A stretch of 24,603 nt of DNA, taken from positions 1-24,603 of the IMG/VR virus record IMGVR_UViG_3300032282_002295; one strand, given 5' to 3'. A model generated the notes under the pieces. It was not told the origin of the DNA. It did no database searches and was given only the letters and a program-made list of their open reading frames with translations. Positions 1-17,706 of the stretch are shown here, one piece after another. This stretch comes from a virus. The first letter of the stretch is position 1. Each line of letters begins with the position of its first letter. Position numbers and translations under genes: made by a program.

Positions 1-1110
1 AATACTTCTGTTTATATTTCTTATAATCCTGCAGGAAATCCTCCTCCATCAACTGCATCAGTAGTTCTTACTGTTACTCAACAAAGTGGTATAATGGCAG
101 GAACAGGGATTACTGCAATTAACTCTTTAACAGGTGCTGCTCAAATAATGGTAACAGGAACTGATTCAAGTGATTTTAAAATAGTTTCTTCAGGTACTAC
201 TCACAAATTTAATATACCAACTGCATCAGCTACTAAAAGAGGTGCTTTATCTTCATCAGATTGGACAACATTTAATAATAAACTTAATGCTACCGATACT
301 GCATCTTTGAGCAATAGGATTAATTTAAAATTAAATTCTTCAGACACATCAAGTTTAAGCAATAGGATTAATTTAAAACTTAATGCTACCGATACTGCTT
401 CTTTATCTACACGTATAAATGCAAAGCAAAATACACTTACAAATCCAGTAACAGGTACAGGAACAACAGGAGCAATATCTAAGTTTACAGGAACATCAAC
501 TATAGGAGATGCTACTGTTGATGTTGATTATCTGCAACAAGATATGTCAATGGTTGCTATGCAAGCTATGGGAAGTTCAATTAAAGGTTATAATTTAACA
601 ATACCTAATATTTCGTCAATAAATACAAGTTATACTAATATTACATCAGGTTTGTTTCTTTTATATCCGATTTATATTCCAAAAACAACAACAATAACAG
701 GAGTGAGATGGTTCCAAACAGTTCAAGGAGTATATACTGCTAATAACTACAACGGAGTTTCTTTATATTCTGTAAGTAGTGGAACATTAACATTAGTTGC
801 ATCATCAACAAATGATGGAACAATTTGGAAAGCAACATCAAATACTTGGGGAAGTAAAGCATTTAGTTCTACATATTCAGCAGCATCAGGAATTTATTAT
901 GTTGGTATGGTTTATTCATCATCCGCACAAACTACTGCTCCTGGATTTGGAGCAACAACAGTTTCTATAGGTGCCATCACTAAAAGTTTTGACTTTACCA
1001 ATTCATTAAAATTAAGTTTATTTCAAAGTTCTGTAACTACATTGCCAAGCACTATAACTGCAAGTGCAACAAGTGCTTCATCAAATAATGTTGCATTATA
1101 TCTTTATTAA
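1..1110 (+). CDS. Tail fibre protein, 5' end outside window
   Basis: The reading frame is open from base 1, so the gene begins upstream; an ATG at 94 is internal to a longer frame. The visible part is a low-complexity Ser/Thr/Asn/Gly-rich fibre. Counting from the ATG at 94, a linker with the SSSDWTTFNNK motif lies at about residues 50-62. Three perfect-length 16-residue repeats of the type KLNATDTASLSNRINL follow at 63-110, then a Gly/Thr-rich stretch to about 140 and a beta-rich C-terminal domain (about 160-338) that could be the receptor-binding tip. Linkers of this kind are, from memory, common in tail fibres of Bacteroidota phages. The lysis cassette downstream fits the end of a tail module. 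The fibre role is confident; the receptor is unknown. Confidence 0.75.
   Translation, partial: NTSVYISYNPAGNPPPSTASVVLTVTQQSGIMAGTGITAINSLTGAAQIMVTGTDSSDFKIVSSGTTHKFNIPTASATKRGALSSSDWTTFNNKLNATDTASLSNRINLKLNSSDTSSLSNRINLKLNATDTASLSTRINAKQNTLTNPVTGTGTTGAISKFTGTSTIGDATVDVDYLQQDMSMVAMQAMGSSIKGYNLTIPNISSINTSYTNITSGLFLLYPIYIPKTTTITGVRWFQTVQGVYTANNYNGVSLYSVSSGTLTLVASSTNDGTIWKATSNTWGSKAFSSTYSAASGIYYVGMVYSSSAQTTAPGFGATTVSIGAITKSFDFTNSLKLSLFQSSVTTLPSTITASATSASSNNVALYLY
280..423 (+). repeat. Three in-frame 48-bp repeats inside fibre gene
   Basis: Three consecutive 48-bp units begin at 280, 328 and 376. Each encodes 16 residues of the form KLN(A/S)(T/S)DT(A/S)SLS(N/T)RIN(L/A). Units 1 and 3 share the start aaacttaatgctaccgatac exactly, while unit 2 differs at many third positions. 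This looks like an amplified segment of fibre shaft, probably a helical or triple-stranded coil segment. Confidence 0.85.
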
Positions 1111-1111
1111 T

Positions 1112-1402
1112 ATGAATACAAGAAACATTCAACCAACACAAATTTGGACTCCTAATGGAGACAAACAAGCAACCATTCTTTCGTTATTTAACTTTAGCGA
1201 TTATCATTTTGATGATGGCGGAGGGAAGGTTAGTTATAAACTAATAGGAATGGAAGCACCTGAAGTAGGTCAGCCTGAAGTGGTAATTGAATATTATATC
1301 GGAGTTGTTGATATTCCTGCTTCAATCATTCAGCAATGGGGAGCATCAGATGATGTGATTTGGACTTATGTATCTAATCAGTTAAATCTTATACTTATAT
1401 GA
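1112..1402 (+). CDS. Small conserved phage protein next to fibre genes
   Basis: A 96-residue protein beginning MNTRNIQPTQIW. I chose the ATG at 1112, one base after the fibre stop. A GTG at 1064 would add 16 residues lying inside the fibre gene. The protein is soluble, acidic and aromatic-rich, with no signal peptide or membrane segment. Its stop overlaps the next start (ATGA at 1399-1402), so the three tail genes are probably translated together. I do not recognise the family. Its position between two fibre genes suggests a tail-fibre accessory or baseplate component, but nothing in the sequence proves this. Confidence 0.7.
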   Translation: MNTRNIQPTQIWTPNGDKQATILSLFNFSDYHFDDGGGKVSYKLIGMEAPEVGQPEVVIEYYIGVVDIPASIIQQWGASDDVIWTYVSNQLNLILI

Positions 1403-2856
1403 AATATTTATTGATTTTATTAATGATTTGTGGGGTTGCTTATGCTCAAGAACCTCCTTATACTCCTATGAAAGGGAATTACAAGTTTAAAGGTATAAAG
1501 GTAGATTCTCTGTTTCTTATTCCTTCATTTGCTGACACTACAGCTGCAAATAGTACTTTCTTAGACTCTGTAGCTGGAGCTATGATTAGAACAGGTAATG
1601 ACTTTTGGATGAGAAATGCTGAGCTTACTAGTTGGTTGCAGAATATAAACATAGGTCCAGGTTCTAATCCTACTACGCAACTTACCTTACAAAATGTGCT
1701 TGATAATAATCACGACTTAGTAAATGGCAATAACTTTCAAGGTACTAATGCTGGAGTAGGAAATTCAGGAAGCGGAAATATTTTATTTGGTGATGGCACA
1801 GGATATAATTCAAATGGAAGTTATAATATATATATGGGACCTTATGCTGGAGAACAAACAGTAGGAGATAATAATATAGCTATGGGTAGTGCTGCTTTAG
1901 CTGATGCTACATATTATGTTGGAAATAGTATTTTTTTAGGTCCTAATGCTGGAAGATTAGGTGCGGCTTCTTTAGCATCAAGCGAAATTGTAGCATTAGG
2001 CAATCAAGCTGCTATGGATTTTGAATGGGGTTATAATGTAAATGCAATAGGTGTAGATGCTTTTCATAGTGGTTATGGAGAACAAATAAATGCTATTGGA
2101 AATCGTGCAGCTTATGATAATCAAGGTAATAATGTTAATGCAATAGGTTATTCATCAGCAGAAACAAATCAAGGTTCTGAAGTTAATGGCATTGGAACAA
2201 ATGCAGCTGGTTCTAATCGTGGGAATAATATAAACGCATTAGGAAATAGTACGGCTTTATTAAATTGGGGAGATGATGTAAATGCTATGGGTTATCACGC
2301 AGCTGATAGCAATATTAAAAGTAATATAAATGCTTTAGGATATACTGCTGGTTTTCATAATTCAGGAGAAGATGTTAATTTTTTTGGTCGTAGAGCTGGA
2401 TATTATAATACTTTTAATGCTGTTAATTTATTTGGCAATCAAGCTCAAGCAACAGCAGATAAACAATTAGTCTTTAGTGATGGAACTTATAATACAAGAA
2501 TTAATTTTGGTGTAGAAGATTCAAGTAGAGAATATACAATACCTCCTAAAGCAGATGGAACATTTGCTTTAACAGGGTATTATGAGGCTGATTTAACTGT
2601 TTCTGGCTATGATGCAATAACTCCAGGAGTATATTTATTAAACAATGGTTATGCGGAATTTTTTAATTTTCCAAATCCAAACAATATGAAAGGACAATTA
2701 ATTACCGTTATTAATTTATCAGGTTCAACAGTTACTTATGGAGCAAATTCTCCAATAAGAGATGTTGGTTTATCCATACAAAGTACTATTCCAAATTCAA
2801 CAACACATATATGTGCAGCAATAAATGGTTATTGGTATTTAATAGGTACAAGATAA
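1399..2856 (+). CDS. Fibre/adhesin-like protein with signal peptide and 16-residue beta-roll repeats
   Basis: 485 residues. Residues 1-16 form a textbook Sec signal peptide (MKYLLILL, hydrophobic core, AYA before Q17), which is odd for a virion protein. Residues 215-342 are eight consecutive repeats of exactly 16 residues of the form NA(I/L/M)G..AA..N.G..(V/I), with degenerate copies back to about residue 125. This resembles the left-handed beta-roll of YadA-type trimeric adhesin heads. A REYTIPPKADGTFALTG segment at about 378-394 matches a linker common in phage fibre proteins, and a beta-rich C-terminal domain follows. The gene overlaps the preceding one by four bases. It is most likely a trimeric tail fibre or appendage protein. 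Alternatively it could be exported and decorate the host surface. Confidence 0.7.
   Translation: MKYLLILLMICGVAYAQEPPYTPMKGNYKFKGIKVDSLFLIPSFADTTAANSTFLDSVAGAMIRTGNDFWMRNAELTSWLQNINIGPGSNPTTQLTLQNVLDNNHDLVNGNNFQGTNAGVGNSGSGNILFGDGTGYNSNGSYNIYMGPYAGEQTVGDNNIAMGSAALADATYYVGNSIFLGPNAGRLGAASLASSEIVALGNQAAMDFEWGYNVNAIGVDAFHSGYGEQINAIGNRAAYDNQGNNVNAIGYSSAETNQGSEVNGIGTNAAGSNRGNNINALGNSTALLNWGDDVNAMGYHAADSNIKSNINALGYTAGFHNSGEDVNFFGRRAGYYNTFNAVNLFGNQAQATADKQLVFSDGTYNTRINFGVEDSSREYTIPPKADGTFALTGYYEADLTVSGYDAITPGVYLLNNGYAEFFNFPNPNNMKGQLITVINLSGSTVTYGANSPIRDVGLSIQSTIPNSTTHICAAINGYWYLIGTR
2041..2424 (+). repeat. Eight in-frame 48-bp repeats (beta-roll)
   Basis: Eight 48-bp units start at 2041 and each encodes 16 residues opening with N-(A/G/F)-(I/L/M/F)-G. 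A ninth partial unit (NLFGNQAQAT) follows. Nucleotide sequence is diverged between units, but the protein period is exact, with Asn at position 1, Gly at position 4 and small residues at 7-8. Confidence 0.85.
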
Positions 2857-2900: not shown

Positions 2901-3155
2901 ATGGAATATGTTCTATCTGTAGTATTAACCTTAATAGGTTATCTAGTTGGATCTCGAAGAAGGAATCTCAGGAATGACAAACTAGAGTTTGAGGTGATGG
3001 AAAAAGGGATTCAGGTGTGGGCCAAATTAACCGAAGAACTTACCCTTCAAGTAGAAAATTTAAAAACTGAAATTGAGGATCTTAAAAAAGAAAATCTTCA
3101 ACTTAGACTAGAAGTACAAAAGCTTCAAACAATTATTTTAACCTATAAAAATTAA
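2901..3155 (+). CDS. Membrane-anchored coiled-coil protein of lysis cassette
   Basis: 84 residues. An N-terminal membrane segment (about 3-18) is followed by a positive patch (SRRRNLRN, about 18-25) and a long amphipathic, Leu/Glu/Lys-rich helix (about 40-80) that reads as a coiled coil. This topology is like an inner-membrane spanin or a small structural anchor. It opens the lysis cassette and is followed three bases later by the holin. Since a one-piece spanin is encoded two genes downstream, this protein may instead modulate the holin or be a minor tail component. I do not recognise the family. Confidence 0.7.
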   Translation: MEYVLSVVLTLIGYLVGSRRRNLRNDKLEFEVMEKGIQVWAKLTEELTLQVENLKTEIEDLKKENLQLRLEVQKLQTIILTYKN

Positions 3156-3158
3156 ATT

Positions 3159-3389
3159 ATGACATTTTCAGACTTTTTGAAACTTAACGTACTTGATGTA
3201 ACTAAAGGATTGATAGTTGCTGTTTTTACTGCTGTTTTAGTTATAGTAAATGATACTATTAGTGCTGGTTCTTTTTCTTTTGACTGGATGCACATAGGTC
3301 AAACTGCTTTAGCCGCTGCTGTTGCTTACCTACTGAAACAACTATTTACTAACTCAGCTGGACAATTTTTATCTAGTGAGACTAAGTAG
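3159..3389 (+). CDS. Putative holin
   Basis: 76 residues with two hydrophobic segments (about 17-31 and 46-63) joined by a short Ser/Gly/Asp loop, and a charged tail ending SSETK. This size and two-segment layout fit class II holins, which form inner-membrane lesions that release endolysin. The position between a membrane coiled-coil protein and a spanin plus M15 endolysin strongly supports the role. The last 14 bases overlap the spanin start. No experimentally defined holin family is recognisable from memory, so the call rests on topology and neighbourhood. Confidence 0.75.
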   Translation: MTFSDFLKLNVLDVTKGLIVAVFTAVLVIVNDTISAGSFSFDWMHIGQTALAAAVAYLLKQLFTNSAGQFLSSETK

Positions 3390-3846
3390 TTTAATATTTT
3401 TGGCCCTACTAGCCAGTTGTTACTCACCTAAAAAGGCGGAGCGACAACTCGCTAGGGCCATTAAATATCCGAAGGTAACTTCGGGTTTTTGTGTTAATCT
3501 GTACCCTATTAAAACTAAGACTGACACATTGTTTTTAACTGAATATGACTGGATAGAGCTTGATTGTCCAGGTCAAATGATTAAATATGATACTATCACT
3601 AAAAAAGCTGATACGATATTTATTACTAAAAAAGTTAAGGTTCAACAAGCTTCTAAAACGGTTACAATAACTAAAACAATTATAGATTCGGCTTCTAATA
3701 CCTACTATAAAAGTCTTAATATAGAGATTCAATCTAAATTAACTAAGACAGAATCTAAACTTCATAAAAAAAGCAATTGGATTAATATCTTGCTTTTTGC
3801 TCTAGGATTACTAATACTTCTATTATTACTTATTAAGAGAAAATGA
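3376..3846 (+). CDS. Putative unimolecular spanin (u-spanin)
   Basis: 156 residues with a GTG start at 3376, overlapping the holin by 14 bases. This start is chosen because it alone gives a complete lipoprotein signal: MRLSSLIFLALLASC with lipobox L12-A13-S14-C15. The middle (20-133) is polar, rich in Lys/Thr/Ile and predicted beta and helical. Residues 135-153 are an unbroken hydrophobic segment ending in KRK. A lipidated N-terminus plus a C-terminal membrane anchor is the hallmark of u-spanins such as phage T1 gp11, which tether outer to inner membrane and drive the last step of lysis. The stop overlaps the endolysin start (ATGA). The call is from topology and context. Confidence 0.8.
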   Translation: MRLSSLIFLALLASCYSPKKAERQLARAIKYPKVTSGFCVNLYPIKTKTDTLFLTEYDWIELDCPGQMIKYDTITKKADTIFITKKVKVQQASKTVTITKTIIDSASNTYYKSLNIEIQSKLTKTESKLHKKSNWINILLFALGLLILLLLLIKRK

Positions 3847-4301
3847 GTGCTTCTAGGAACATATTGCAAAAGTATGGTCCTCCAGATGATCATTATTTTG
3901 CCAAATATGGCATGACTTGGAATGTGATAGAAGACTTTAAGTGGTCAGAGAATATCCTTATAATGGACACCGTTAAGCCTTTAAAACGCATCCTAATAAA
4001 TAAAGAGTTCCAATCTAAGCTTAAGACGGCTTTTACAAATTTAGAAAGAGCTGGTTTACATACTGAAATAAAGACCTATGATGGCTGTTATAACAATAGA
4101 TCAGTTAGAGGCAGTGAGTCTAAGAGTCTTCATGCTTGGGCTATGGCTATTGATTTAAATGCTTCTTTAGAAAAATTAGGACAATCAGGAACTAATTGGT
4201 CAGCACAATTTGTAGCCATTATGAAGGCTGCTGGTCTATTTTGGGGTGGTGATTGGAGGGGCAGAAAGGACAATATGCACTTTGCCTTATTCAATGGCTA
4301 A
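3843..4301 (+). CDS. Endolysin, M15-family peptidase
   Basis: 152 residues resembling the M15 metallopeptidases (VanY / L-alanyl-D-glutamate endopeptidase type, as in phage T5 endolysin) that cut peptidoglycan stem peptides. Zinc ligands are visible as H97 and D104 in SLHAWAMAID and H146 in KDNMHF. W134-GGDW138 before the last His is the usual WGGDW signature. There is no signal peptide, so release needs the upstream holin. It is the last gene of the 2901-4301 cassette and is followed by the 380-base control region. Confidence 0.9.
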   Translation: MSASRNILQKYGPPDDHYFAKYGMTWNVIEDFKWSENILIMDTVKPLKRILINKEFQSKLKTAFTNLERAGLHTEIKTYDGCYNNRSVRGSESKSLHAWAMAIDLNASLEKLGQSGTNWSAQFVAIMKAAGLFWGGDWRGRKDNMHFALFNG

Positions 4302-11378: not shown

Positions 11379-11915
11379 ATGAAAGTTTGGATAAGGACTC
11401 CATATTCTATTGAAAAGAATCTAGGCAAAGCTTATAATGAAGAGATGGACCTTATACCTGATGGTGATTCAGCTTGTTTTCACGATGGAGATACTATGTT
11501 TTTAACTCCTGATTATGGTCATATCATTGACCAATATGCTAACGCTAATCCTGATGCTGTTCTTACTTGCTGGACCAATAGGATTCATCAACTGGCAGTA
11601 GGTCAGCTTTATAATATCAACAGCTCAGATGTCAAGGATCACTTGACAGTTCAACAAGGATTCACTACAACTACTGAGATTAGTGGTCCAGTATCAGGAT
11701 TTCTTTTAGTTATACCTAAACACATATGGTTAATATATCCTTTCGCTGAAGAAAATATCTATAGACCTGGAGAGCTTAATCTCTTGGGTGTAGATAATGA
11801 ATGGACCAATAAGATAAGGAGGAATGGTATTCAAGTACTACGAATGGATGGTTTATATGTTTGGCATACTTACAGACTACTGAGCAATGGCTTAGATAAA
11901 TCACATCTTAAATGA
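11379..11915 (+). CDS. GT-A-like glycosyltransferase
   Basis: 178 residues. HDGDTMFL (35-42) holds a D36-G-D38 DxD motif, which in GT-A enzymes binds the metal and nucleotide-sugar. The C-terminal GVDNEWTNKIRRNG then IQVLRMDGLYVWHTYRL places acidic and His residues as in GT-A families that end with an active-site His. It is shorter than usual (about 240), so it is a minimal catalytic domain. It is the first enzyme of a tightly overlapping cassette. The donor could be the GDP-sugar made by the cassette's Gmd; that is inference. Confidence 0.75.
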   Translation: MKVWIRTPYSIEKNLGKAYNEEMDLIPDGDSACFHDGDTMFLTPDYGHIIDQYANANPDAVLTCWTNRIHQLAVGQLYNINSSDVKDHLTVQQGFTTTTEISGPVSGFLLVIPKHIWLIYPFAEENIYRPGELNLLGVDNEWTNKIRRNGIQVLRMDGLYVWHTYRLLSNGLDKSHLK

Positions 11916-12649
11916 ATAGAGAACAAGTATATAGCAGAATAAAGGAAGGAGAACCATTAAGTCTAATAAGATGTGGTGATGGAGAAAAGATAGTCCTAGA
12001 AGGTTTTGAAAGCTATGGTAATTATAACTCTGTACTCAAAAGACAATTAGGCTATTCACCAGCTATAGAAGAAGCTGAAAGAATAAGAGAGAATCTTATC
12101 ATGGCTATCAATGGATGCGATATAATTGGAGTTCCAAAGCATAAGAACTTAGATAGTATGCACAAACATTGGAAAGATGTAGAGATGACAATAGATATAT
12201 ATTGCCAAGCTCCATCATTAAGATGCTCTACAAATATTCATTATGATTTGTTAGAAAATAAAGATTATGAATCCTTATTAACTTCAAAACCTATTTCATA
12301 TATTGGATGCAGAGACTTAGTTACTAAGATGAGCGAAAGGTTTAAGACTCATAAAGTAGATTGGTATCAGATAGCTCCAGAGGCTAAGTACACATCAGGA
12401 TGGGAAGGACCTAAACATTATCCTGATCAGTTTAATAAGGTGGAGCGATGGATGGATGTAGTTAAAGCTCATGGTAAGATTCTTTTAGTAGGAGCTGGAT
12501 TCATTGGAAAGATATATTGTAACTGGTGGAGGGATAGGGGAGGGATAGCTTTAGACATTGGATCTATAATGGATGAGTGGGCTGGAAGAGTAACGAGGGG
12601 AGCTGATAGGGAGCTAGATAAGATTGAACTAACTAAATGGACTTTATGA
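11912..12649 (+). CDS. GT-D-fold glycosyltransferase-like protein (DUF1792)
   Basis: 245 residues. LSLIRCGDGE (16-25) and the C-terminal ILLVGAGFIGKIYCNWWRDR with GGIALDIGSIMDEWAG (190-225) are the two hallmark blocks of the GT-D/DUF1792 family. The founder, from a streptococcal serine-rich adhesin locus, adds glucose to protein-linked glycan. The RxGDGE block replaces the DxD of GT-A folds. It overlaps the previous gene (ATGA) and the cupin gene (ATGA). A role in extending a glycan on a phage or host protein is plausible. Confidence 0.8.
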   Translation: MNREQVYSRIKEGEPLSLIRCGDGEKIVLEGFESYGNYNSVLKRQLGYSPAIEEAERIRENLIMAINGCDIIGVPKHKNLDSMHKHWKDVEMTIDIYCQAPSLRCSTNIHYDLLENKDYESLLTSKPISYIGCRDLVTKMSERFKTHKVDWYQIAPEAKYTSGWEGPKHYPDQFNKVERWMDVVKAHGKILLVGAGFIGKIYCNWWRDRGGIALDIGSIMDEWAGRVTRGADRELDKIELTKWTL

Positions 12650-13062
12650 TACAAGTTATTTATAGCAAGATTGAGCCGACTAGAGTCCTTCATGGTATAG
12701 TAAGAAAGTCAGACCTATCAGCTAAAAGAACAGACTTAGTAGATCCTGATGAGTTCTTACAATGTGCAGCAATAAGACTTGACAGAGGAGAAACATTTAA
12801 AGCCCATCAGCATAGATGGAACATAAAGCAAAGTCATAACTATATAGCTCAGGAGTCATGGGTAGTAATATCAGGCAACGTTAAAGTCTTTTATTATGAT
12901 ACTGATGGGACTTTATTACATGAGGATGTGATTACTCCAGGTGATGCTTCATTTACATTTGAGGGTGGACATAACTACGAATGCATGACTGATGGAACTT
13001 TTGTATATGAATTTAAGACTGGTCCTTACCTAGGTCAAGAAATGGATAAAATATTCTTATGA
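12646..13062 (+). CDS. Cupin-fold protein, probable sugar-modifying
   Basis: 138 residues from the ATG at 12646, whose ATGA overlap with the GT-D stop fits the cassette's pattern. An ATG at 12637 would add three residues. Single-domain cupin: H54-x-H56, E70 and H109 are placed like the 3-His/1-Glu metal site. SWVVISGNVKVFYYD and DASFTFEGGHNY mark the barrel strands, and the C-terminus reads EFKTGPYLGQEMDK. In sugar clusters such cupins are epimerases, ketoisomerases or WbuC-like proteins. Which one is not decidable here. Confidence 0.75.
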   Translation: MIQVIYSKIEPTRVLHGIVRKSDLSAKRTDLVDPDEFLQCAAIRLDRGETFKAHQHRWNIKQSHNYIAQESWVVISGNVKVFYYDTDGTLLHEDVITPGDASFTFEGGHNYECMTDGTFVYEFKTGPYLGQEMDKIFL

Positions 13063-13694
13063 AAATAATCATAACAACATCTGATAAGTATCAGCATTTA
13101 TTGCCAGTATTTTTCTACCTTTTTAATAAGCATTGGAACAAATCAGCTGAGTTAGTAGGATACACCAAGCCAGACAATTTACCTGATAATATTTCATTTC
13201 ATTCTATGGGTGAAGATAGGGGACCGAAGTATTGGAGTACTGACTTGAGGAAGTACTTTGAGTCTCAGGAAGATTGGTTTATTTGGATTATGGAAGATAC
13301 ATTCATTAAGGAGGAAGTAAACGAGAACAAGATGAATGATTGCTTTGCTATGAATTACAATGGCATAGGTAGAGTAGACTTAACTAAGGATGTGCAGAAA
13401 AGAGAACATACTGTTAACAATGGATATGCTTGGGCTCATCCAAAGTCTAGGTACAGACTAAGTACTCAGCCATCAATTTGGAATAAGCAGTTCTTACTTA
13501 ATTATCTTCATGAAGGAATGGATCCATGGGAATTTGAAACTCAGGATCCTGCTGATGATGGATGGCAGATTGTGTCAGCTATTGACTATCCGATTGTGCA
13601 TAATGAAGGAGTTCGAAGACATAATATTTTTAAATTAGATCTTAACGGAATTGAAGATCCTGAAGTAAAACAGCTATGCTCAAACTTCATTTAG
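13059..13694 (+). CDS. Putative glycosyltransferase
   Basis: 211 residues. An N-terminal MKIIITTSDKYQHLLPVFFY strand-helix, then DWFIWIMEDTF (72-82) with an acidic ED pair in a DxD-like position. The block YRLSTQPSIWNKQFLLNYL (132-150) followed by DPWEFE is typical of a glycosyltransferase family seen in phage and capsule loci. W-N-(K/R)-x-x-L-L and P-W-x-F-E are its signatures. It overlaps the cupin by four bases and the next gene by 19. Donor and acceptor are unknown. Confidence 0.7.
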   Translation: MKIIITTSDKYQHLLPVFFYLFNKHWNKSAELVGYTKPDNLPDNISFHSMGEDRGPKYWSTDLRKYFESQEDWFIWIMEDTFIKEEVNENKMNDCFAMNYNGIGRVDLTKDVQKREHTVNNGYAWAHPKSRYRLSTQPSIWNKQFLLNYLHEGMDPWEFETQDPADDGWQIVSAIDYPIVHNEGVRRHNIFKLDLNGIEDPEVKQLCSNFI

Positions 13695-14194
13695 GTTGCG
13701 GAAAGAGGGATTTTGGAAAGACTTGGAAGCATATAGATGCAGCCAACTTTGACCATATAGACTCTAAGAATGTAAAGAAACTACCTTATAAGGACCAGAC
13801 TGTAGATGTAATATATGCTTGTCATTTGATTGCTTACTTTGATAGGCAAGAGATAATCCCTATACTCGCTGAATGGAATAGAGTATTAAAGCCAGGTGGG
13901 ATACTTAGATTAGCTACTCCTGATTTTTGGAGACTCAGTCAGCTGTATTTAAACTCTATGATTAGAATAGACTTAATCCTCGGTCCCTTGTATGGCAAGA
14001 TGGACAATGGAACTAAAATATATCATAAGACTGTCTGGGACTTTCAGAGCTTACAATTCACATTACTACTTGCTGGATTTAAAAATGTAAAGAGATACGA
14101 ACATACAGAGACAGATCATGCTCAATTTGATGATCATTCTGCTGCCTATATCAGGCAGACTTTAATAAGCTTAAATGTACAATGCAATGCCTGA
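13676..14194 (+). CDS. SAM-dependent methyltransferase, class I
   Basis: 172 residues. LHLGCGKRDF (4-13) is the glycine-rich SAM-binding motif I. LPYKDQTVDVIYACHLI (36-52) and EWNRVLKPGGILRLATPDFW (66-85) are motifs II and III of Methyltransf_11-type enzymes. It overlaps the upstream glycosyltransferase by 19 bases. Its presence among glycan genes suggests O- or N-methylation of a sugar, but the acceptor cannot be read from sequence. Confidence 0.8.
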   Translation: MLKLHLGCGKRDFGKTWKHIDAANFDHIDSKNVKKLPYKDQTVDVIYACHLIAYFDRQEIIPILAEWNRVLKPGGILRLATPDFWRLSQLYLNSMIRIDLILGPLYGKMDNGTKIYHKTVWDFQSLQFTLLLAGFKNVKRYEHTETDHAQFDDHSAAYIRQTLISLNVQCNA

Positions 14195-14870
14195 GTGGAT
14201 AGTTAAAGGTCAATTAATGTCAGATTACTTGCAAGGTTGCAAAGATGCTGATATAGACAACTTTAAGAATGATCCTAGATTGACTGCTATTTGGGAGCAT
14301 TGCTCAACTACTATAGCTAATCAGTACTTGATTAATATTAAAGAAGACAATCCTTGGTTGTTAGATAAGATATTTACTAATGACATTAAGGGAGGATCTA
14401 AAATTGTAGACTTTTCTGACTTTATTGGATCATCTTCTACTTTGCAATACATTGGAGTATTAAGTAACTTAATAAGAGAATTTGGTCCATTGACTGGGAT
14501 GAATATACTAGAGATAGGTGGTGGATATGGTGGTCAGGCCTTAACTATAATGGATGTTTATAATCCAGGCTCTTATGATATGTTAGACCTACCTGAAGTA
14601 TTAGATTTACAAAGAAGGTATCTGAATAATGTTTTAATTACTAATAAGACTAAATATTACTCATCTATTCAATTTAAGAAATATGATTTAGTGATAAGCA
14701 ATTATGCTGTTTCTGAGATAGCCAATAATGAAAAATATATTGAGCAAATGAAGTTATGTAAACATGGATATATAACATGCAATACAGATTTAGTTAACCT
14801 TCCATTTGAACATAAGAAGATTAGAGATGTTAAAGGAGAAAGAGATACTAATTACATTTTAATATGGTAA
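14175..14870 (+). CDS. Putative sugar O-methyltransferase
   Basis: 231 residues from the ATG at 14175, or 227 from 14187 (MPEWIV), both overlapping the previous gene. NILEIGGGYGGQA (110-122) is motif I, and MLDLPEVLDLQRRYL (136-150) is typical of the family annotated as putative sugar O-methyltransferase. An N-terminal helical region (about 1-105) covers the active site. The stop overlaps the DegT gene start. It is unrelated in sequence to the two other methyltransferases of the cassette, so three different positions or substrates may be methylated. Confidence 0.75.
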   Translation: MYNAMPEWIVKGQLMSDYLQGCKDADIDNFKNDPRLTAIWEHCSTTIANQYLINIKEDNPWLLDKIFTNDIKGGSKIVDFSDFIGSSSTLQYIGVLSNLIREFGPLTGMNILEIGGGYGGQALTIMDVYNPGSYDMLDLPEVLDLQRRYLNNVLITNKTKYYSSIQFKKYDLVISNYAVSEIANNEKYIEQMKLCKHGYITCNTDLVNLPFEHKKIRDVKGERDTNYILIW

Positions 14871-15574
14871 TATATAATCCATGGCCTATTGGGAATGTTC
14901 CTGATTATTTAAGGAGGCCAGAGTTAGAAATACTTAAAACTAAAGGTTATGTTTTTAATGATGCTCGGGATGTTGTTGATTTATTCGAAGGTAAAGTTAA
15001 AGAGTTTACGGGTTCTAGATATGCTTTGGCTGTTGATTGCTGCACTCATGCTCTAGAGCTTTGTCTTAGATATAAGATAGCAATAGGAGAGATAGACTAT
15101 GGTTCATCAATTGGAATACCTGAAAACACTTATATATCTGTTCCAATGACTATAACTAAACTAGGATTAAGATATAAGCTTATGCCTAATAAATGGTCTG
15201 GTATATATCCTTTAATTTGCTCTGGTTTAGAGGTAATAGATGCAGCTGTAAGATGGAAAGAAGGAATGTATTTAAATCATTCTATGATGTGCCTTAGTTT
15301 TCAAATAAAGAAGAGAATACCAATAGGAAGGGGAGGCATGATATTACTTGACAATCTTAAAGCTTATGAAGCTATTAAGCTTATGAGATATGATGGCAGA
15401 GATTTAGATACAGCTTACGATTCTGATGATCATATTAAGTCTTTTGGATATCATTACTACATGACTCCTGAAGATGCAGCTAGAGGGATTTTGCTAATGG
15501 ATGAGATTAAAGAGCAAGGGGATTCAGCATCTTATTTAAATTACCCAAACTTAAACAAATGGCTAAAGCTTTAA
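14864..15574 (+). CDS. Compact DegT/DnrJ/EryC1/StrS-type aminotransferase
   Basis: 236 residues, against about 370 for the family. The large PLP domain is recognisable: KEFTGSRYALAVDCCTHALEL (46-66, where the family has a G-T-A-L turn), VIDAAVRW with D126 at the pyridine-binding position, LSFQIKKRIPIGRGGMILL (144-162) with K149 or K150 as Schiff-base lysine, and YHYYMTPEDAARGILLMDEI (197-216). The C-terminal domain is largely missing and the middle is shortened. In sugar pathways these enzymes transaminate 4-keto sugars. The next gene, gmd, makes exactly such a keto sugar (GDP-4-keto-6-deoxymannose), so a perosamine-synthase role is likely by context. Confidence 0.75.
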   Translation: MVIYNPWPIGNVPDYLRRPELEILKTKGYVFNDARDVVDLFEGKVKEFTGSRYALAVDCCTHALELCLRYKIAIGEIDYGSSIGIPENTYISVPMTITKLGLRYKLMPNKWSGIYPLICSGLEVIDAAVRWKEGMYLNHSMMCLSFQIKKRIPIGRGGMILLDNLKAYEAIKLMRYDGRDLDTAYDSDDHIKSFGYHYYMTPEDAARGILLMDEIKEQGDSASYLNYPNLNKWLKL

Positions 15575-16512
15575 TAACTGGAATAAGTGGTCAGGATGGA
15601 TCTTATCTATCTGAATATCTATTAAGTTTAGGATATGAAGTGCATGGAATTTTAAGAAGAAATTCAGTCCCTGAACACCAGGAGAGCCGAATCTCTAGGC
15701 TTAATGTAAAGACTTACTATGGTGATCTTTTAGATCAGTCAAGCTTAGAGAAGGTAATTAAGGAGGTTCAGCCTGATGAGATTTATAATCTAGCTGCTCA
15801 AAGTCATGTAAGGATTTCTTTCGATGTCCCTCAGTTTACAGCTCAATCCAATGCTTTAGGAGTTTTAAATATATTAGAAGCTTATAAGACTCAATGTCCT
15901 GATGCTAAGTTTTATCAGGCTTCTTCTTCAGAGATGTTTGGTAATAGTGTAGATGCTGACAACTATCAAAGGGAATCAACACCAATGAAACCAGTAAGTC
16001 CATATGGTTGCTCTAAGTTGTTTGGATATAACATAACTAGGACTTATCGTGAATCTTTTGAATTAAAGATATCTAATGGAATTTTGTTCAATCATGAGTC
16101 ACCTAGGAGAGGTTCTAACTTCGTAACAAATAAGGTTATTAAAGCAGCTGTAAGGATTAAACTTCATCTTCAGGATTTCATAGAGTTAGGCAATATAAAG
16201 TCTTATAGAGATTGGGGACATTCTAAAGACTATGTACGAGCTATGCACTTAATATTACAGCAAGATCCAGGGGACTATGTTGTAAGTACTGGAGAGACTC
16301 ATAGTGTTGAAGAAATGATTCATTATGTAGCTAAGAAATTAAATATTGACATACCAGTCAAGATTTTAGATAAGCATAAAAGACCGAATGAATTAGACTA
16401 TCTTAGGGGTGACAGCTCAAGAATAAGGGCTTTAGGATGGAAGCCTGAATATAATTTTTATTTATTAATGGATGAGATGATAGAACATTGGCTTAAAGTA
16501 TATGGAAAATAA
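15559..16512 (+). CDS. gmd: GDP-mannose 4,6-dehydratase
   Basis: 317 residues, slightly shorter than the usual 340-370. This extended SDR enzyme converts GDP-mannose to GDP-4-keto-6-deoxymannose. It shows the NADP-binding TGISGQDGSYL (7-17), the RRNSV loop, S123/E125 in QASSSEMFG, the catalytic Y149-x-x-x-K153 in PVSPYGCSK, and the GDP-binding FNHESPRRGSNFVT (177-190). The active-site Thr of the E. coli enzyme is replaced by Ser, which is conservative. It overlaps the DegT gene by 16 bases and the DUF616 gene by 11, so it is firmly part of the cassette. The missing length is near the C-terminal substrate domain. Confidence 0.95.
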   Translation: MAKALITGISGQDGSYLSEYLLSLGYEVHGILRRNSVPEHQESRISRLNVKTYYGDLLDQSSLEKVIKEVQPDEIYNLAAQSHVRISFDVPQFTAQSNALGVLNILEAYKTQCPDAKFYQASSSEMFGNSVDADNYQRESTPMKPVSPYGCSKLFGYNITRTYRESFELKISNGILFNHESPRRGSNFVTNKVIKAAVRIKLHLQDFIELGNIKSYRDWGHSKDYVRAMHLILQQDPGDYVVSTGETHSVEEMIHYVAKKLNIDIPVKILDKHKRPNELDYLRGDSSRIRALGWKPEYNFYLLMDEMIEHWLKVYGK

Positions 16513-17146
16513 AGTAGTTTATACAGCGATTATAGGCGATTATGACGAACTTAATGAACCGACCATAGTATCGGAAGGTTGGGATTATTGGTGCTTTACA
16601 GACCAACCATTGAGGTCTGATGTATGGAAGATAATTCATGTAGGCTACGATGATGATGCTCAGAGAACAGCCAGAAAGATTAAAATATTATTTGACAAGT
16701 TTGTCCCTCATACTTATTCATTATGGTTAGATGCTTCCTTTCACATTAAATGTGATCTTAATCAGTTTTGGATGGACCATTATAGTGAGCCATTCTCAGT
16801 CCCAAGTCATCCAATAAGAGATTGTGTATTCAGAGAAATAGATAGTTGCATAGCTAATCAAAGAGGAAATGAGGATGAATTACTACTTCAAAGACACCAG
16901 TACAAAACTGAAGGAGTTCCAGCTTTCAATGGCATAATAACGTCTGGCGTTATGATGAGAAGGAACTGTGACTTTGTCAAAGACTTTTGTGCTGATTGGT
17001 GGGATGAGTTAAGCAAAAACTCAGTAAGGGATCAGATAGCTTTTGCCTATGTAGCATGGAAATGGAACTGGTTGTATAATACTTACAAATGGGACTATTC
17101 TAAATCTAATGAACTTAAATATCTAAAACATAAAAAGTACAAATGA
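16502..17146 (+). CDS. DUF616 (TOD1/MUCI70-like) glycosyltransferase
   Basis: 214 residues. VVYTAIIGDYDELNEPTIV (5-23), WDYWCFTDQPL (27-37), the D77 of SLWLDASFHI and the HPIRDCVFREIDSCI block (103-117) match DUF616, the domain of plant TOD1 and MUCI70 and of many bacterial glycosyltransferases. R176-D177-Q178 in the C-terminal helix is also typical. It starts 11 bases inside gmd and ends in an ATGA overlap. Acceptor unknown; placement next to gmd suggests use of a GDP-sugar. Confidence 0.8.
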   Translation: MENKVVYTAIIGDYDELNEPTIVSEGWDYWCFTDQPLRSDVWKIIHVGYDDDAQRTARKIKILFDKFVPHTYSLWLDASFHIKCDLNQFWMDHYSEPFSVPSHPIRDCVFREIDSCIANQRGNEDELLLQRHQYKTEGVPAFNGIITSGVMMRRNCDFVKDFCADWWDELSKNSVRDQIAFAYVAWKWNWLYNTYKWDYSKSNELKYLKHKKYK

Positions 17147-17706
17147 CACGTACACATATACTAAATTTTTTAGTAAATAGCAAAGGGTTTAAGTCTTATT
17201 TAGAAATAGGAATTCAGAATGTGCGCAATAATTTCAATAGGATTCAATGTAGTAACAAACTAGGAGTAGATCCAGCTGTTGATGATATTAATGTCATTCC
17301 AATGACTAGTGATCAGTTCTTTGATTGCAATCAGCGAACATTTGATTTAATATTTATTGATGGCATGCATGAATATAATCAGGTAAAAAAGGACCTAGAC
17401 AATAGCTTAAAGATTTTAAATGATGGTGGAATTATAATGCTTCATGATACTTTACCTGAAGAAGAGATAACTACGATGGTACCAAGACAAACTCAGCAAT
17501 GGCATGGGGATGTATATAAACTTGTATTAGATTTAAACAGCTATGAAAATGTAAATTTCTATACTATTGATTCAGATTGTGGATGCACAATAGTTTGGAA
17601 ATCAGTTAATAAAGCTAAAAAATACCCATTAACTTGGGAAAGTTATTTAAAGAATAAAAAAGCAATGAACATAATAGGACCACATGACTTCCTTAAACAC
17701 ATCTGA
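17143..17706 (+). CDS. SAM-dependent methyltransferase (Methyltransf_24-like)
   Basis: 187 residues. YLEIGIQNVRNNF (19-31) is motif I and GVDPA (41-45) holds the ribose-binding Asp. FDLIFIDGMHEYNQVKKDLD (67-86) and GGIIMLHDTLP (95-105) are the family signatures; D73, H76, H101 and D102 could bind a metal, as in catechol- or sugar-type O-methyltransferases. It closes the cassette and overlaps TerL by 23 bases, so cassette and packaging genes are one transcript. Confidence 0.8.
   Translation: MTRTHILNFLVNSKGFKSYLEIGIQNVRNNFNRIQCSNKLGVDPAVDDINVIPMTSDQFFDCNQRTFDLIFIDGMHEYNQVKKDLDNSLKILNDGGIIMLHDTLPEEEITTMVPRQTQQWHGDVYKLVLDLNSYENVNFYTIDSDCGCTIVWKSVNKAKKYPLTWESYLKNKKAMNIIGPHDFLKHI

Follow-up and report, generated by a model that had tools for sequence, protein, structure and literature searches.

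On balance, the gene at 1399-2856 of the phage DNA analysed here probably encodes a Sec-exported, processed, trimeric-fibre-like protein of a Bacteroidota tailed phage, which would join virions at or after lysis. What is new here is that four Cellulophaga phages have peptide-bearing fibre genes in the same place, whose products are listed in the records as virion proteins on MS/MS evidence. By analogy, these records suggest that some phages add fibres outside the cell interior. Tailed-phage assembly is taught as a cytoplasmic process.

The DNA (the window, in full a linear virus record of 24.6 kb that carries no completeness estimate) is a fragment of a Bacteroidota phage. It encodes a large terminase, a portal and a major capsid protein, and most tail genes are missing from it. 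The terminase matched 24 phage records, 12 of them at a query coverage of at least 80% (some phages entered in two copies). All 12 are Bacteroidota or human-faecal phages, namely Flavobacterium 11b, Bacteroides Versailles and BS-TP3, Cellulophaga phi10:1, Polaribacter P12002L/S and two human-faecal phages. Ahead of the gene studied here lie a small gene and, before it, a truncated fibre gene; behind it come genes for small membrane proteins, a candidate spanin and an M15 endolysin:

1..1110, + strand: truncated fibre gene at the contig end, its frame open to base 1 and its N-terminus cut off
1112..1402, + strand: small gene separating two fibres (ORF list, by eye), with similar genes at L002 7747-8004 and L009 6582-6890
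1399..2856, + strand: fibre-like gene, 485 aa (ORF list and sequence), with an in-frame stop 7 codons upstream
1399..1446, + strand: type I (Sec) signal peptide, residues 1-16, cleavage AYA↓Q (rule-based call)
1447..1668, + strand: conserved N-terminal domain, residues 17-90 (alignment), common to five signal-peptide fibre genes on three contigs
2041..2424, + strand: eight 16-residue repeats, residues 215-342 (autocorrelation), within a beta-solenoid modelled by AlphaFold2 over 1687-2478
2569..2853, + strand: C-terminal domain, residues 391-485, resembling a small tailspike domain (VIA-align, low-confidence model)
2901..3389, + strand: two small membrane proteins, holin candidates (weak PHROG matches)
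3376..3846, + strand: candidate unimolecular spanin (lipobox rule, C-terminal membrane segment, weak PHROG Rz-like match)
3843..4301, + strand: M15 peptidase endolysin (Pfam PF13539, E 4.8e-14)

The frame reported in the first-pass annotation is correct, running from ATG at 1399 to a stop at 2856 and giving 485 residues. Its start codon overlaps the stop of the preceding gene (ATGA), and the in-frame stop 7 codons upstream leaves little room for a longer N-terminus. The clean AYA↓Q signal peptide claimed in the same annotation was likewise recovered. The protein begins MKYLLILLMICGVAYA followed by QEP, with Lys at position 2, a hydrophobic core, A-Y-A at -3 to -1 and Gln at +1, and was called type I by a home-made rule, which is other than SignalP and was loosened once after missing two test sequences. 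A lipoprotein (SPII) reading was rejected, with no lipobox present, Ile at -1 before Cys11, and the Cys absent in relatives. The window protein thus has the type I peptide with Gln at +1 of Bacteroidota Sec/SPI substrates; according to the available text of two reports, most signal peptidase I substrates in this phylum carry Gln at +1, the 'Q-rule' (PMC5837995, PMC10653852).

Two related IMG/VR contigs, L002 and L009, carry fibre-like genes in the corresponding place, of 564, 306 and 303 aa in L002 (where a small gene precedes the last) and of 547 and 679 aa in L009. On both, tail proteins lie on one side of these genes and a lysis cassette on the other, and spanin candidates are alike on all three contigs (window 3376-3846, L002 9111-9593, L009 7549-8004). 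Six fibre-like genes of the group have their start in view (one in the window, three in L002, two in L009), and each encodes an SPI peptide with +1 Gln by our rule. The truncated window gene at 1..1110 is 43% identical over 290 aa to a signal-peptide gene, L009 4541-6580, and by this similarity probably had a signal peptide as well.

Conservation within the group is concentrated at the start of the proteins. A stretch of about 90 residues (peptide plus next domain) is 38-80% identical between the window gene and four of the five L002 and L009 genes; the exception, L002 f2, lacks the conserved N-domain beyond a YVPM stretch. A Met in a YTPM, YVPM or WVPM stretch is present in all six signal-peptide fibres (window residue 24, nt 1468-1470). 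Behind the conserved residues the proteins differ, carrying other repeats or domains, and the last domain can be aligned in three. Most codon change between the window gene and L002 f3 is synonymous: of the 16 signal-peptide codons, 5 are identical, 8 synonymous and 3 non-synonymous, and of the next 74, 19 are identical, 40 synonymous and 15 non-synonymous. The peptide therefore looks to have been kept as protein despite drift of the DNA, and is apparently maintained by selection. Together, the contig group presents the features of phage tail fibres, with a position in the tail-to-lysis interval, a conserved N-domain and variable C-termini. From its sequence conservation, we infer that the N-terminal domain (residues 17-90) is a virion-attachment or trimerisation module.

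Relatives beyond these contigs were scarce. In tblastn searches of the phage collection, the N-domain, the 798-aa tail protein of L002 and the first L002 fibre found no match, further viral contig scans returned just L002 and L009 again or phages without a Q-rule fibre, and two genome contig scans gave no relative. The whole window protein matched 7 records of the phage collection, among them PTm5 and two copies each of pT24 and PTm1, through its repeat region alone. No signal peptide was found in the four repeat-bearing proteins checked, which come from MW202545, a Halorubrum virus and one copy each of pT24 and PTm1.

The eight exact 16-residue NA.G..AA repeats of the first-pass annotation are exact in spacing and degenerate in letters, the literal motif occurring in 2 of the 8 units by eye. 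The motif Gly falls at residues 218, 234, 250, 266, 282, 298, 314, 330 and 346, which makes eight units followed by the beginning of a ninth. Identity at lag 16 is 38.7% over residues 216-350 against a shuffle maximum of 21.0% (0 of 20,000 shuffles reach 38.7%), and 30.1% against 17.4% over residues 116-350. An AlphaFold2 monomer model of the repeat region, of middling confidence (ma335e6ebfc4d; mean pLDDT 69.5, pTM 0.72), is predicted as a beta-solenoid, and VIA-align superposed it on the head of BpaC (Z 13.5, rmsd 9.3, 227 aligned), as well as on a curli subunit (Z 15.4) and GlmU (Z about 11). The proposed YadA-like beta-roll is supported as a likeness of fold between a monomer model and the BpaC head, and not as membership of the YadA family: YadA_head (PF05658) had no match at E 10 in the window record and none by Pfam scan, the C-terminal YadA anchor (PF03895) had none in the window protein, and YadA itself is absent among the matches listed by VIA-align for the whole-protein and repeat-region models. 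At E 0.001 the repeat-region model had no PDB match in Foldseek, and a fold search with the whole-protein model (mean pLDDT 52) gave none at that threshold and two matches in viral models. Pfam, PHROGs and NCBIfam assign no family to the protein, and a single phmmer match against the PDB, VirB8 at E 0.59, was taken as chance. In a low-confidence region of the model, the C-terminal domain aligned with phage tailspike parts (Z 7.4-8.7, rmsd 2.5-2.9), among them Solidus gp83 (24qj; Z 8.7, rmsd 2.5, 81 aligned). An established phage module is favoured by the shared N-domain, the swapped C-termini and the likeness of the C-terminal fold to tailspikes.

Because the window terminase pointed to Cellulophaga phage phi10:1, we examined the tail region of that phage. 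For gp091-094 of phi10:1 the record gives a structural role by MS/MS proteomics, and their signal peptides end LSA↓Q, SFG↓Q, VSA↓Q and LNA↓Q, respectively. The gp094 sequence matched 25 phage records, including two of phi10:1. MS/MS-noted proteins with rule-called peptides also occur in phi19:1 (gp101-104, where the rule gave type II for gp101, which has INA↓Q farther along) and phi18:3 (gp085-087), and phi39:1, which was not picked by similarity, has MS/MS-noted gp025 (peptide by eye, MAA↓Q) and gp026 (by rule). Among the other gp094 matches, phi46:3 and phi19:3 (both annotated by likeness to a different phage) and Ingeline_1 and Nekkels_1 have peptides, with no MS note seen. The Cellulophaga MS notes reportedly go back to a 2013 PNAS paper.

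We counted peptides in five phages under a strict rule (SPI, +1 Gln, score at least 3.5), and found them in 10 of 44 MS-labelled CDS against 4 of 193 others (Fisher p = 1.1e-5), a count in which the share of phi19:1 and phi18:3 is not independent because both were chosen as gp094 matches. Without these two phages the figures are 5 of 35 and 4 of 155. The counts cover phi10:1 (106 CDS) and phi39:1 (48 CDS) whole and the other three phages over the retrieved region; CDS cut at stretch ends, including MS-labelled phi19:1 gp096 and phi18:3 gp099, were left out, and phi18:1 gp052, whose record note was seen in part, was entered as not MS-labelled. Not among the strict 10 are phi19:1 gp101, called SPII, phi19:1 gp104, which has Lys at +1, and phi39:1 gp025, which the rule missed. 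Such peptides are lacking from the MS-labelled proteins of head, tail tube and tape measure, apart from two low-scoring calls on portal proteins that were taken as false.

Several of these virion-labelled proteins have no evident peptide-free start. In phi10:1 gp094 there is no internal Met and no GTG or TTG in the first 60 codons, and a stop lies 3 codons upstream. As no alternative start is available, a correct MS label would mean that gp094 is a virion protein necessarily synthesised with its signal peptide. Likewise, phi10:1 gp091, phi18:3 gp087 and phi39:1 gp026 have no GTG or TTG in the first 60 codons, and their first internal Met comes not before 77, 166 and 176, respectively. The first 42 residues of gp094, comprising the peptide and the mature start, are 88-93% identical in three other phages, with no match beyond. 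The Cellulophaga fibres and the window N-domain share no sequence match in the phage collection. Separately, a short KNQ-LIYWRY-like ending is nearly the same in five Cellulophaga phage fibre-like proteins with differing starts (L015 12954-14258, L016 10944-12194, L017 7615-8955 and 10956-12080, L018 12914-14254), four of which have a signal peptide by rule.

The Q-rule fibre peptide is not general among Bacteroidota phages, since eight others examined were without it. Among the CDS tested in 11b (8), P12002L (8), Versailles (6), phi38:1 (8), B40-8 (12), 6H (13) and FCL-2 (18), no fibre or large tail gene had it, and it was absent from the phi18:1 tail region. The open-licence literature that we searched holds no statement that Q-rule signal-peptide phage proteins are virion fibres. 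The available text of one survey describes phage DGR target proteins as lacking detectable signal peptides (PMC6199706).

For the window protein, periplasmic export would be the simplest fate, given a predicted cleavable peptide and no anchor found. Late in infection, the fibre chain would pass the inner membrane via Sec, signal peptidase I would cleave before Gln17, and a host glutaminyl cyclase would convert Gln17 to pyroglutamate. Once in the periplasm, the mature chain may fold as a beta-solenoid fibre whose N-terminal domain is conserved and whose C-terminal parts can be exchanged. Virions, put together in the cytoplasm, would reach these fibres when the cell is lysed by holin, endolysin and spanin, and docking of the fibres would be through the N-terminal domain. 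We infer export, cleavage, trimerisation and docking at lysis, and with them that the window protein behaves like its Cellulophaga counterparts. One of three options in the first-pass annotation was export of the protein, with joining to the virion taking place outside the cytoplasm; the MS/MS-recorded peptide fibres of four Cellulophaga phages, several lacking a peptide-free start, support this route, which would extend to the window protein by analogy. More broadly, a set of Bacteroidota tailed phages may build two-compartment virions, in which heads and tails form in the cytoplasm and Sec-exported, host-processed, periplasm-matured fibres are added as compartments mix at lysis, a proposal that we regard as evenly poised.

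An unlikely alternative, and the best surviving one, is that the exported protein works on the infected cell or close to it and merely sticks to virions or co-purifies with envelope fragments. The 'MS/MS' of the Cellulophaga entries is an annotation in the records, a label that envelope fragments carried along in purification could also produce. Receptor masking, exclusion of other phages and trimming of host surface polysaccharide are the proposed roles, and are jointly as improbable. Some signal-peptide neighbours do look like enzymes: L002 f2 (306 aa) has an arabinofuranosidase-type domain (Pfam E 3e-9), which other phages have in proteins annotated as tail or virion components, and pectate lyases are annotated in phi10:1, Ingeline and Nekkels. 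In Porphyromonas gingivalis phages, five Q-rule genes of unknown function are discussed, in the available text of the report, as possible outer-membrane modifiers (PMC10367356). Against this, the window protein has no lipobox and no YadA anchor match, and NCBIfam detected no type IX secretion domain at E 0.1 in it or in nine other signal-peptide fibres; the cassette also occupies a tail-fibre position, and proteins of four phages bear MS labels. Decoration of the host surface, which the first-pass annotation had raised, is weakened by the missing outer-membrane anchors and is retained as a rival.

It is more doubtful still that the hydrophobic N-terminus stays uncleaved and serves within the virion for anchoring or assembly, the protein remaining cytoplasmic throughout. 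Known siphophage tails assemble in the cytoplasm, and some of these N-termini are extremely conserved. Yet small -1 residues and Gln at +1 recur before many unrelated mature N-termini, as at Bacteroidota SPI sites, and the core varies in sequence yet remains hydrophobic. We think it very improbable that the window group uses a second start at the conserved Met24 to make a cytoplasmic virion form beside the exported one. A Met (PM) does stand at this position in all six group fibres, but it may merely belong to the conserved YTPM motif, and phi10:1 gp094, a virion protein per its record, has no internal Met, so this cannot be a general route. Least probable is a phage-captured host adhesin gene with the signal peptide a leftover relic: the monomer model of the repeats resembles adhesin heads, but the N-domain is common to tandem phage genes whose C-termini differ, the C-terminal domain aligns with tailspike parts, selection apparently maintains the peptide, and the two genome contig scans yielded no relative and hence no host-adhesin tree.

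If export followed by joining to virions is correct, fibres of Bacteroidota phages would undergo an assembly step outside the cytoplasm and be added at lysis, some signal-peptide phage genes that annotators leave as unknown would be accounted for, and host periplasmic enzymes would get a chance to modify fibres. Export could keep receptor-binding or polysaccharide-degrading fibres out of the cytoplasm, and pyroglutamate would shield the new N-terminus, a protection described for exported proteins in the available text of PMC10653852. An SPI peptide with Gln at +1 behind tail genes may also serve as a simple sign of receptor-binding proteins in poorly annotated gut and marine phages.

Host glycosylation could reach periplasmic fibres. 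The motif D[ST][AILMVT], which we take to be the Bacteroides O-glycosylation site, was counted in six window-group and 14 Cellulophaga proteins. It is enriched in the former (39 against 13.8 expected) and not in the latter, all 20 together giving 57 against 55.7. D-[ST]-x motifs resembling this site are abundant in window 1-1110 and L009 4541-6580, and L009 f2 has 17 against 3.7 expected, partly due to repeats. Elsewhere in the window, 11379-17706 holds a run of sugar and methyl-transfer genes flanked by DNA-metabolism genes and the terminase, with a GT-D-like domain, a DegT aminotransferase, a TOD1/MUCI70-type domain, three methyltransferases and a GDP-mannose 4,6-dehydratase (E 4e-106). This run may modify host or virion glycans.

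Among known systems, YadA-type trimeric autotransporter heads (BpaC, PDB 7o23) share with the window protein a hydrophobic-x-Gly repeat core, regular spacing, a beta-solenoid (modelled for the window) and a signal peptide, but the window protein has no Pfam YadA_head or YadA_anchor match and lies in a phage gene context. Flavobacterium phage 11b gp46 and Polaribacter phage P12002L gp29 occupy a similar genomic place in phages with a related terminase, but lack a signal peptide. The Q-rule genes of Porphyromonas gingivalis phages likewise combine Bacteroidota-type signal peptides with phage genes, but in the available text are read as host-surface modifiers (PMC10367356), unlike the virion part proposed here. 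A further counterpart is the fibre cassette of Cellulophaga phages phi10:1, phi19:1, phi18:3 and phi39:1 (KC821618, KC821607, KC821620, NC_021804). Its products are recorded as virion proteins by MS/MS; its N-domain has no detectable similarity to that of the window, and no YadA-like repeat was noticed in it. Like the window group, it consists of consecutive long genes behind tail genes, encoding proteins with a peptide that mostly has Gln at +1, a conserved start and variable C-termini.
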